From contig JADYZP010000042.1 in NCBI GenBank assembly GCA_020853025.1, positions 62,001 to 126,000 on the forward strand: a stretch of 64,000 nt of DNA, in the 5' to 3' direction. Positions 61,147 to 64,000 of the stretch are shown one piece after another. The notes under the pieces are model-generated. The model was not told where the DNA came from. It searched no databases and worked only from the letters and a program-made list of their open reading frames with translations. Position 1 is the first letter of the stretch, and each line of letters begins with the position of its first letter. The position numbers and the translations under genes were made by a program. Source of the stretch: Burkholderiales bacterium (GTDB taxonomy: Bacteria > Pseudomonadota > Gammaproteobacteria > Burkholderiales > Casimicrobiaceae).

Positions 61147-61785
61147 ATGGCCAGCGATCCCGCGCCTTCCGTCAATGCGCTCACGGGACTCGAGCTGCAC
61201 GAAGCCAAGCGCGCGATGCGTACGCGGATCGTCGCTGCGCGCGATGCGCTCGCCCGGCAGGCGAGGGAGACGGCGACCGCGGCGATCGCGGCGCGCGTTG
61301 CGGATCTGCCTTCGTTCCGGCACGCGCGCTGCGCGCTGTTGACGCTGCCCTTTCGCAGCGAATGGGATACGACTGCGCTGTTCGCCGCAGCTCTCGCGGA
61401 AGGCAAGACCATTGCCATGCCGCGCGTCGACACCGTGTCGCGGATGCTCGACCTGCACACGGTGCACGACATCGCCCGCGATACGGCACCCGGCTACCGC
61501 GGCATACCCGAACCGAATCCGCGGTTGCCGCGCGTGGCCGTCGGGGACGTCGAGTGGGTGCTGGTCCCCGGAGTCGCCTTCGACCTCCAAGGCCGGCGCC
61601 TGGGCTACGGCGGCGGCTTCTACGATCGGTTGCTGGCGATGGTGCGCAAAGGCGTGCCGCGCGTGGCCGGCGCCTTCGATGTCCAGGTGGTCGATGCCGT
61701 CCCGGCCGCGCCGCACGACTTGGCGGTCGACGTGATCGCGACCGAATCACGAATCCTGATCATCCGCGTCGACGGTGAGTCGTGA
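61147..61785 (+). CDS. ygfA: 5-formyltetrahydrofolate cyclo-ligase
   Basis: An ATP-dependent enzyme returning 5-formyl-THF to 5,10-methenyl-THF. The 212-residue protein has MRTRIVAARDAL, LTLPFRSEWDTTALF, and the ATP-binding signature VPGVAFDLQGRRLGYGGGF with YDR following. ATG 61147 was taken; a TTG two codons earlier also fits. In many proteobacteria 6S RNA precedes ygfA; only 91 bases separate it from pepP here, too few. It overlaps the MFS gene by four bases. Confidence 0.92.
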   Translation: MASDPAPSVNALTGLELHEAKRAMRTRIVAARDALARQARETATAAIAARVADLPSFRHARCALLTLPFRSEWDTTALFAAALAEGKTIAMPRVDTVSRMLDLHTVHDIARDTAPGYRGIPEPNPRLPRVAVGDVEWVLVPGVAFDLQGRRLGYGGGFYDRLLAMVRKGVPRVAGAFDVQVVDAVPAAPHDLAVDVIATESRILIIRVDGES

Positions 61786-63002
61786 CCGCCCTCGGAACGC
61801 GCACCGCGCTGGTCGCACTGGCGGCGACGCTCGCGATCCAGGGCTTCGCCTCGGTGGCAGCCACCGCGCCGGCGGTGCTGGCGCCGGTCCTCGCGCGGGA
61901 CTTCGGCATCACGCCCAGCTGGATCGGCATCTTCGTCGGCATCATGTATGCGGGCGCGATGCTGGCGAGCCTGGGTAGCGGTGCGTTCATCACACGCTAC
62001 GGCGCGATTCGCGTGTCGCAGGCCTGCGTGCTGCTCTGCGCCTGCGGCATCGCTGCGATGGCGGCACTGCCCGGTACCGCCGCGCCGTTGCTCGTCTTCG
62101 CCGCATTCGCGATGGGGCTGGGTTACGGTCCGATCACCGCCGCGTCGTCCGAACTGCTGGCGCGGACCACCCCGCCGGGACGCATGGCGCTGACCTTTTC
62201 GATCAAGCAGACGGGCGTACCGGCGGGCGCTGCGTTCGCCGGCGCCGTGCTGCCGGGACTGGCGCTCGTCGGCGGTTGGCGAGCGGCGTTGCTGGCGATC
62301 GCGGTGCTCGGTGTCGCGGTCGCGGTCGCCTCCGAACCCACCCGCCGTGCGCTCGACATCCGCCAGAGATCGGCGGCGCGGATGTCGGTCGCGTCCATCC
62401 TCGGGCCGCTGCGCATGGTCTGCAGTTCGCCGTCGTTGCTCGAACTGGCGCTGGTCGGCTTCGCGTTCGCGGCCGTCCAGGTGTCGTTGACGAGCTTCCT
62501 GGTCGTCTTCCTGACCGCCACGCTGCACTGGCCGCTGGTCGCCGCCGGGTTGGCGCTCACCTGTGCCACCGTCAGCGCGGTTCCAGGACGCATCGGATTC
62601 GGCGCCGCCGCGGACGGGAGGTTTCCCGCCCACCGGATACTCGCGCTGATTGGGACGCTGGCCTGCGCCTGCGGTGCCGCCTTCGCGTTCGCCACCCCCC
62701 ACTGGCCGGCATGGATCGTTCTGCCGCTGGCCGCCGCCTACGGCGCCACCGCCATCGGCTGGAACGGCGTCCAGTTGTCGGAACTCGCCCGCCGCGCACC
62801 TTCGGGGACCGCGGGCGCGGTCACCGGCGCCGCAGGCTTCATCACCTTTGGCGGGGTTTTCTGCGGACCGATGCTGTTTGCCGCGCTGACCGGAGTGACC
62901 GGAGGCTACCGCGCCGGATTCCTGCTCAACGCGGCGATCAGCGGCATCGCTGCAATCGCGATGCTGCGCAGGGGCGCAGCATCAGGACGTCGTTCGCTGT
63001 AA
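61782..63002 (+). CDS. Major facilitator superfamily transporter
   Basis: A 406-residue transporter with 12 predicted membrane helices and short ends. It has the MFS motif-like SLGSGAFITRYGAIRV between helices 2 and 3, and a central cytoplasmic loop around EPTRRALDIRQRS. PGRMALTFSIKQTGVPAG in helix 5 resembles nitrate/cyanate-type (NarK/CynX-like) transporters, but the substrate cannot be assigned. The GTG start overlaps the ygfA stop (GTGA). It ends 61 bases before the aceE-like ORF. Confidence 0.88.
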   Translation: MTALGTRTALVALAATLAIQGFASVAATAPAVLAPVLARDFGITPSWIGIFVGIMYAGAMLASLGSGAFITRYGAIRVSQACVLLCACGIAAMAALPGTAAPLLVFAAFAMGLGYGPITAASSELLARTTPPGRMALTFSIKQTGVPAGAAFAGAVLPGLALVGGWRAALLAIAVLGVAVAVASEPTRRALDIRQRSAARMSVASILGPLRMVCSSPSLLELALVGFAFAAVQVSLTSFLVVFLTATLHWPLVAAGLALTCATVSAVPGRIGFGAAADGRFPAHRILALIGTLACACGAAFAFATPHWPAWIVLPLAAAYGATAIGWNGVQLSELARRAPSGTAGAVTGAAGFITFGGVFCGPMLFAALTGVTGGYRAGFLLNAAISGIAAIAMLRRGAASGRRSL

Positions 63003-63004
63003 TG

Positions 63005-63033
63005 TGGAAATCATTTCCATAAATGCCTAGAAT
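63005..63033 (+). promoter_or_regulatory. Promoter candidate with palindromic operator before the aceE remnant and aceF
   Basis: TGGAAA (4/6) and TAGAAT (5/6) are separated by 17 bp. The -35 lies within a perfect inverted repeat, TGGAAAT-C-ATTTCCA (63005-63019). This gives a likely regulated start for the pyruvate dehydrogenase genes, independent of the MFS transcript. The palindrome does not match the E. coli PdhR site as I know it. Confidence 0.55.
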
Positions 63034-63063: not shown

Positions 63064-63228
63064 ATGGATGCGCAAAGAAACGATCCCGATCCGCAGGCAA
63101 CGCGCGCGTGGCGGGAGGCGCTGTCCGGCGTGCTGGCCGACGATGACACGATCGCCGCGACGACGGCGGCCGAGGCGATCGCGAAGTACGGTGTTGATCC
63201 CGACAAACCCGCTCCCTGGACGGTGTGA
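63064..63228 (+). pseudogene. aceE: aceE with a large in-frame internal deletion (54-residue remnant of pyruvate dehydrogenase E1)
   Basis: The 54-residue frame has an ATG with GGAAG about seven bases upstream and ends two bases before the aceF ATG. Its first half, with NDPDPQATRAWREAL, matches the start of homodimeric E1 (E. coli AceE NDVDPIETRDWLQAI). Its second half, with TAAEAIAKYGVDPDK, matches the extreme C-terminus (E. coli VVADAIAKFNIDADK). About 830 residues between, including all thiamine-diphosphate and active-site regions, are absent, yet the frame is kept. It cannot be an active E1. Since both E1 ends are implicated in docking to E2, a binding role is conceivable. An assembly collapse is the main alternative. 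Confidence 0.75.
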
Positions 63229-63230
63229 TC

Positions 63231-64000
63231 ATGGGTACGATCGAAGTCAAAGTGCCGGACATCGGGGACTTCACCGACATCCCGGTCATCGAGGTGTACG
63301 TGAAGCCCGGCGACAGCGTACGTGCCGAGGATTCGCTGATCGCGCTCGAGTCCGACAAGGCAACGATGGACGTGCCGTCGCCGGCCGCGGGCGTCATCGG
63401 CGAGCTGCGTGTGAAGGCCGGCGACAAGGTCAGCGAAGGATCGGTGGTGCTGACGCTGGAAACAACGGGTGGGGAGACGGCGGTGGAGGCGCCGCCAAAG
63501 GACGCACCCTCGGGCCAACCCTCTCCCGCAAGCGGGAGAGCGAGCGCAGGTGCGCAGGCGAGCGCGCCCTCCCCTCTCCCGCCCGCGGTAGTGGAGCCGG
63601 CGATTGAGGCGCCCACTGACAGCGAAGCCGCCAAGGCCGCGCACGCGTCGCCATCGGTGCGGCGCTTCGCACGCGAGCTCGGCGTCGACGTCGCGCGCGT
63701 GACCGGCAGCGGACCGCACGGAAGAATCCTGCAGGACGACGTGCAGCGCTACGTGAAGGAAGCCTTGCGGGAGACCGACCACAGCGCCGGCGGCGGCGCG
63801 CTCGACCTCCTGCCCTGGCCAAAGGTCGACTTCGCCAAATTCGGCACGATCGAAGCGACGCCCTTGTCGCGGATCCGGAAGATCTCCGGCGCCAACCTCG
63901 CGCGCAACTGGGTGATGATCCCTCACGTCACACAGTTCGACGAAGCCGACATCACCGATCTCGAAGCCTTCCGGCTGCAGTTGAACCGCGAGAACGAAAA
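63231..64000 (+). CDS. aceF: Dihydrolipoyllysine acetyltransferase (pyruvate dehydrogenase E2), 5' part
   Basis: The E2 core transfers acetyl groups from E1 to CoA. The ~256 visible codons contain one lipoyl domain (1-~80) with the lipoylated Lys in ESDKATMDVPSP, and an Ala/Pro/Ser linker (~83-135). A peripheral-subunit-binding domain follows with ASPSVRRFARELGVDVARV and GRILQDDVQRYV (~140-180). After it comes the start of the catalytic domain (IRKISGANLARNWVMIPHVT). The gene runs off the right edge. Only one lipoyl domain is present, against three in E. coli. A palindromic repeat lies in the linker. The expected full-length aceE upstream is missing. Confidence 0.95.
   Translation, partial: MGTIEVKVPDIGDFTDIPVIEVYVKPGDSVRAEDSLIALESDKATMDVPSPAAGVIGELRVKAGDKVSEGSVVLTLETTGGETAVEAPPKDAPSGQPSPASGRASAGAQASAPSPLPPAVVEPAIEAPTDSEAAKAAHASPSVRRFARELGVDVARVTGSGPHGRILQDDVQRYVKEALRETDHSAGGGALDLLPWPKVDFAKFGTIEATPLSRIRKISGANLARNWVMIPHVTQFDEADITDLEAFRLQLNRENE
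63521..63577. repeat. Palindromic repeat element within the aceF linker
   Basis: A perfect 9-bp inverted repeat CTCTCCCGC-AA-GCGGGAGAG occupies 63521-63540, and a further CTCTCCCGC-like copy appears near 63573-63581. Its shape resembles REP-type palindromes usually found between genes in high-GC proteobacteria. Here it is translated as Ser/Pro/Ala-rich linker and does not break the frame. Confidence 0.55.

Follow-up and report, generated by a model that had tools for sequence, protein, structure and literature searches.

A probable in-frame deletion remnant of a redundant aceE gene upstream of an intact aceF in a Casimicrobiaceae genome

Introduction

AceE, the homodimeric E1 component of pyruvate dehydrogenase described by the curated model TIGR00759, is a protein of about 890 residues, and acidic residues at its N-terminal end are needed for binding to E2. 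Two further kinds of known system are relevant to the short open reading frame (ORF) described here. Gene remnants arise by deletion between short direct repeats, and leader ORFs are known whose translation is coupled to that of the next gene. A literature search returned no paper on substitutions at the E1 N-terminal end, or on in-frame remnants or deletions like those of the present stub.

The window, i.e., the whole stretch of DNA analyzed, comprises 64,000 nucleotides (positions 62001–126000 of contig C42) of a Burkholderiales genome (G000; 3.65 Mb, 71 contigs, 93.9% completeness). Near its end lies an ORF of 54 codons that carries both ends of AceE directly before aceF, the gene for E2. 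We consider it a recent, non-polar deletion remnant of the syntenic aceE gene of the genus, redundant in this genome, with a rough probability of 0.85.

Results

The stub and its two halves

The features that define the locus are as follows:

61782..63002, plus strand: MFS transporter gene (Pfam MFS_1), the 5′ neighbour of aceE in the genus
63064..63228, plus strand: aceE remnant of 54 codons, here called the stub (ORF, matches to relatives, synteny)
63064..63135, plus strand: stub codons 1–24, from the aceE 5′ end (alignment with relatives)
63139..63225, plus strand: stub codons 26–54, from the aceE 3′ end, ending in PAPWTV (alignment with relatives)
63231..64000, plus strand, continuing past the window end to L004:6533: intact aceF (E2), 433 aa from the ATG at 63231 (TIGR01348)

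The stub (MDAQRNDPDPQATRAWREALSGVLADDDTIAATTAAEAIAKYGVDPDKPAPWTV) starts with ATG and ends with TGA, and the aceF ATG follows 2 bases past this stop; a GTG at 63225, overlapping the stop, is an alternative aceF start. Sequence comparison with relatives confirmed that both halves match AceE beyond chance. Residues 22–54 match AceE C-terminal ends (best E = 3.0e-10, 70% identity, G003) and residues 1–30 match N-terminal ends (best E = 4.1e-7, 63% identity, G009), these E-values being per single genome in a search of 100 genomes, its own included, at E ≤ 0.01. G009 is among the relatives whose ends best match the stub (13 of 18 and 20 of 29 residues). TIGR00759 itself gives 14.6 bits (E 0.006) in two stretches, below its cut-off of 859.9 bits, so the identity of the stub is proven by the relatives and not by the model. 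Other families tried for the 54-aa peptide in Pfam and NCBIfam gave weak matches throughout, among them a phage tail chaperone model (E 0.15) and TIGR03186 (E 0.12).

The catalytic body is missing: of the relatives' genes, the stub lacks all that lies between approximately codon 25 and the final 29 codons. A sequence-only reading of this DNA had already recognized the two joined AceE ends and estimated an in-frame loss of about 830 codons; both proposals hold, the loss now standing at about 830–850 codons. The same reading had offered three origins for the ORF: a non-polar deletion remnant, a selected microprotein occupying E2 and an assembly collapse.

The syntenic locus in the genus

Whole-locus comparison included 20 stretches fetched from 19 of the 21 genus relatives, with G018 and G021 left out. 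A complete aceE occupies the syntenic place in 17 of the 19, while in the remaining two (G004 and G003) it is interrupted by contig ends. These 17 genes measure 885–905 codons, counted from 15 codons before a conserved Trp; G000 has 54 codons in the same position, with the neighbours retained and about 2.5 kb missing. As far as the stretches reach, the gene order is shared: in one direction Dus, a UbiH-type hydroxylase and a PepP-type peptidase, and in the opposite direction 5-FCL, MFS, aceE, aceF, (lpd), rpiA and proA. The MFS gene precedes aceE in 16 of the 17 relatives with a complete syntenic gene. At the locus itself, matches were absent for MFS in G011, for 5-FCL in G011 and G016, and for aceF in G010.

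The aceF gene beside the stub encodes the lipoyl, E3-binding and catalytic domains and scores 619 bits with TIGR01348 against a cut-off of 552.1, in a query with one extra codon in front. Among at least 80 named loci listed in an AceF search, the nearest named relatives were mostly Betaproteobacteria, at no more than 70% identity among the matches listed. In the locus tree, the position of G000 is weakly supported (0.50). Within the aceF linker, positions 63519–63588 hold CCCTCTCCCGC AA GCGGGAGAG together with a second copy of the first arm; by eye, this resembles a GC-rich repeat element within the Ala-Pro linker.

The deletion junction

One feature marks the place where the two halves meet:

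63132..63139, plus strand: junction GCTGGCCG, a short stretch resembling both breakpoint sites of relatives (alignment, breakpoint scoring)

The relatives that look nearest have GTG CTG GC. GCC GAG GGC or similar (VLAAEG) at the N-side site and GCG CTG GC. GAC GA. GGC (ALADDG or ALADEG) at the C-side site. The 18-nt N-side site was scored against each downstream position of the aceE gene of the same relative, in 17 relatives. The true 3′ site was the single best position in three of them (G008, G007 and G009, with 2,532, 2,592 and 2,553 positions) and fell within the best five, ties counted, in six more (G019, G011, G014, G005, G012 and G016); G001 and G006, with 12 matching nucleotides each, ranked it 8th and 9th. 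Similarity amounts to 12–15 of 18 nt in 11 of the 17 relatives, and is weak in the other six (9–11 of 18 nt, ranks 18th to 133rd). The longest in-register run common to both breakpoints is 2–8 nt across the 17. Because the two stretches are similar and lie in the same register, a deletion between such sites is automatically in frame.

Other E1 genes in the genome

TIGR00759 identified two other full E1 genes, on contigs C24 (888 aa) and C40 (899 aa), scoring 1466 and 1483 bits against the cut-off of 859.9; a third, partial match or an orphan aceE fragment was not found in the genome. The idea of an organism lacking E1 was accordingly rejected, and the expectation of the sequence-only reading that another E1 must exist was borne out. 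Judged by gene content, the aceE function would be supplied from elsewhere by these two genes, whose activity is predicted.

The C24 gene belongs to an aceE-aceF-lpd operon. Its aceF, at 543.6 bits, stays slightly below the TIGR01348 cut-off of 552.1, yet is matched over its full length, and its lpd exceeds the TIGR01350 cut-off. This lpd (L005:10911-12770, 619 aa) carries an N-terminal lipoyl-like part before the dihydrolipoyl dehydrogenase, and its residues 4–125 match the E2 model TIGR01348. Contamination was considered as a source of C24 and rejected on two native features. The tetranucleotide correlation of the contig is 0.90 with each half of the window, compared with 0.92 between the halves and at most 0.85 for other species of the genus, and C24 bears the sole hemA match of the genome (E ≤ 1e-50), which is closest to G009 (81%). 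An E1 tree built from 31 of 40 matches, leaving out nine fragments or near-copies from G003, G004, G009, G010 and G021, places the C24 gene in one clade (support 1.00) with the second copies of G008, G010, G018 and G021; the syntenic E1s fall outside it.

The C40 gene passes the cut-off of the aceE model but not that of TIGR03186. Over 16 kb, its contig correlates at 0.79 and 0.77 with the window halves, and some other species come higher (G010 at 0.84–0.85). From composition, C40 is less certainly native to this genome, and we therefore base the redundancy argument on C24. Beside this third E1 gene (L006:6642-9341, 899 aa) no aceF or lpd match was present in the 16 kb taken; it adjoins a large gene resembling, by eye, a glycoside hydrolase.

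Decay of the syntenic operon in other lineages

Loss at this locus is not confined to G000. G010 possesses a second operon of the C24 type and has kept its syntenic aceE, but unrelated ORFs stand where aceF would come next; its sole AceF match at E ≤ 1e-60 sits in the second operon. The expected aceF place (L137:3604-4895) holds two other ORFs of 309 and 130 aa. In G018, a piece at a contig start carries the C-terminal end of a syntenic-type aceE and then another ORF, which suggests the same aceF loss as in G010, as judged from contig-end pieces; the link of this piece to the syntenic locus comes from the E1 tree and from reading by eye. There, the expected aceF place (L025:305-1792) is taken up by an ORF of 496 aa or more, in which an ATPase-like motif was recognized by eye.

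G008, with two extra pyruvate dehydrogenase operons, still keeps both syntenic aceE and aceF, so redundancy alone does not force loss. Some of the lineages with a second operon are thus losing the old one gene by gene, though this does not hold for every such lineage. We count the parallel decay in G010, which lost aceF, and G000, which lost aceE, in favour of the remnant origin.

Conservation of the stub and selection

A different origin would give the peptide a function of its own. An internal deletion could have created a regulatory microprotein whose retained AceE ends bind E2, holding the core of the adjacent AceF, and so block or tune the full E1 from the other locus, making E2 favour or avoid the E1 encoded in the second operon. 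In favour of this idea, PMC6270654 states that in E. coli the peripheral subunit-binding domain of E2 is the main partner of the E1p N-terminal region. The stub has also kept its frame and its C-terminal end, and it breaks none of the eight invariant C-side columns.

Conservation across genomes argues against such a protein. A match over residues 1–54 came from the own genome only, with none of the 99 others holding both ends in a short ORF at E ≤ 0.01. The 64-genome family search at E ≤ 1e-5, own genome included, again gave a full-length match only in G000 and no other stub in the 63 remaining genomes, a set that held no second genome of the same species. A second short frame in this search, of 98 aa (G018:C77), is a contig-end piece. 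Moreover, the stub breaks two of the nine N-side columns that are invariant in 18 relatives, both by Glu to Ala changes in the ET.EW motif. Applied to the 18 intact relatives in turn, the same column test finds six that break one otherwise invariant column (two N-side, four C-side) and none that breaks two.

Codon models were fitted with branch times from PepP, UbiH, ProA and RpiA. On the G000 branch, which is long (2.77 neutral changes per codon), the joined aceE ends have an omega of 0.116 against a background of 0.094 (p 0.55), a value far below 1 that an advocate of the microprotein could cite. Taken separately, the N-side gives 0.168 versus 0.059 (p 0.06) and the C-side 0.082 versus 0.116 (p 0.48), the absence of relaxation in the latter being usable in the same way. 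However, evolution before the deletion would by itself give a low omega. With the ends of intact aceE genes as foreground, 3 of 18 also reach p < 0.05 (G001 and G017 lower; G020 higher, omega 0.305), which makes the codon test a noisy one. AceF on the G000 branch, with 0.107 versus 0.085 (p 0.04), is still strongly purifying; as RpiA reaches p 0.04 in the opposite direction, we make nothing of the AceF difference from background, whereas the purifying selection on AceF itself counts for the remnant origin.

In most of the first codon fits a poor starting simplex left the time scale at 1.0; a refit of the aceE ends reached about 0.9 at best, and we rely on the neutral-fraction profile of that refit. 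A neutral end-part of 2–5% of the G000 branch fits best and 0 to 15% is compatible, for one genome, twice the log-likelihood cost being 0.5 at 0%, 3.4 at 15% and 6.0 at 20%. The codon data fit a recent deletion and a few later changes; they do not need selection on the peptide and are compatible with it. Recent descent from a working AceE accounts for the conservation of the stub.

Upstream elements and aceF translation signals

Three short elements flank or lie within the stub:

63005..63019, no strand assigned: 15-bp palindrome TGGAAATCATTTCCA / TGGAAATNATTTCCA, candidate operator from the aceE promoter region (inverted repeat)
63028..63033, plus strand: TAGAAT, a −10-like hexamer (consensus match only)
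63218..63225, plus strand: GGACGGTG, a probable ribosome-binding sequence for aceF that falls within the final AceE codons (predicted anti-SD pairing)

The palindrome has 7-nt arms of 100% complementarity, and its exact form occurs once in the genome. Within the genus it is found, as a single exact site per genome, in 10 of 22 genomes; in nine of these ten it precedes the syntenic aceE (the stub in G000), and the G009 site lies elsewhere. We regard it as a candidate operator of the pyruvate dehydrogenase operon. The palindrome is also present approximately 170 bp before aceE in G031, from another genus, and at four further sites in the family (two in G024, one each in G027 and G030).

The palindrome begins 59 nt ahead of the stub start. 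In the eight relatives sharing its exact form, 127–198 nt lie between its beginning and that of the aceE match, and the shorter distance here hints at a real local deletion. General compaction of the upstream spacer was considered and dropped: the spacer between MFS and the stub is 61 nt, G013, G005, G010 and G016, which lack the palindrome, have about 40 nt between MFS and aceE, and only the palindrome-to-start distance is short.

Promoter-like sequence, as claimed by the sequence-only reading, is present as one hexamer pair at 63005–63033 with 9 of 12 matches (mean of shuffled sequences 0.2, sd 0.4), and by eye several relatives have TACAAT, TAGAAT or TAAAAT upstream of aceE. For the 20 nt that precede the aceF ATG, with the final 3 left off, anti-SD pairing is predicted at −9.3 kcal/mol, stronger than at the other 11 of the 12 loci with a script-found aceF start. 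The gap between stub and aceF is 2 nt as against 7–164 nt (upper estimates) in 11 relatives, whose spacers and energies are rough, the script taking the last possible start. Of the 18 available loci, 13 entered this comparison; no start was obtained for G009.

Discussion

We propose that about 2.5 kb would have been deleted between two short, similar, in-register stretches, VLA.EG near the N-terminal end and ALAD.G near the C-terminal end, a step that would have removed the catalytic body and fused the AceE ends in frame. Such a loss would be tolerable because of the second pyruvate dehydrogenase operon on C24 and the third E1 gene on C40. Since promoter-like elements, start, stop and the probable aceF ribosome-binding sequence were kept, aceF is probably still transcribed and translated, and its product may serve another E1. 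The stub would act, at most, as a short leader ORF for aceF, and the 54-aa peptide is most likely a by-product without a function of its own. Of the three origins first offered, the non-polar remnant is the one that we favour. Points that count against it are the reliance on one assembly, the retention of both genes in G008, the weak junction similarity in six of the 17 relatives, the unrelaxed C-side of the stub and the score of the C24 aceF slightly under its cut-off.

That the stub is selected as a leader ORF, coupling aceF translation through its position regardless of its amino acids, is a tentative possibility. This would be an addition to the remnant origin and does not compete with it. 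In its favour, the stop stands beside the aceF start, and the predicted pairing sequence, stronger than at the other loci compared, lies in the last aceE codons. On the other side, the energies are predictions and the comparison with the relatives is rough; the parts kept are those that aceF would need in cis, and any tolerated deletion in the operon would keep them too.

An assembly error, by which the deletion would exist only in the assembled consensus and the organism would have a full aceE here, appears improbable. The join comes from a single assembly, of 71 contigs and 93.9% completeness. Nevertheless, the in-register run shared by the breakpoints is probably too short for ordinary assembler collapse, no orphan fragment accompanies the two full E1 genes that match the aceE model, and the stub has changed at two columns that are invariant in the relatives. 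The shortened palindrome-to-start distance likewise hints at a real event.

Least probable is the selected microprotein, given its absence from every other genome searched, the Ala residues in place of two invariant Glu and a low omega that the time before the deletion would explain.

The remnant origin makes this locus a clear case of a duplicated central-metabolism operon in decay: G000 has lost E1 and G010, probably with its sister G018, has lost E2, the losses in G000 and G010 each occurring at the syntenic locus alongside a second pyruvate dehydrogenase operon. It also carries a warning: where similar stretches in the same register explain the join, well-kept ends and an intact frame are no proof that a stub is a microprotein. 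To us the stub looks like what is left when a spare gene is lost in the usual way, not like a new small protein, and it has little weight beyond its value as an example of decay and as such a warning.

Compared with known systems, the stub resembles AceE in having both its ends, its place before aceF and the upstream palindrome, and differs in lacking the catalytic body, as 54 of about 890 residues and the 14.6 bits against 859.9 reflect. With remnants of deletion between short direct repeats it shares the similarity at the junction, the loss of a redundant gene and intact neighbours; unlike them it is in frame, because the two stretches code for similar peptides in the same register. Like coupled leader ORFs, it ends 2 bases before the next start and contains a probable ribosome-binding sequence; regulation through it, or its conservation as a leader, is hypothetical.
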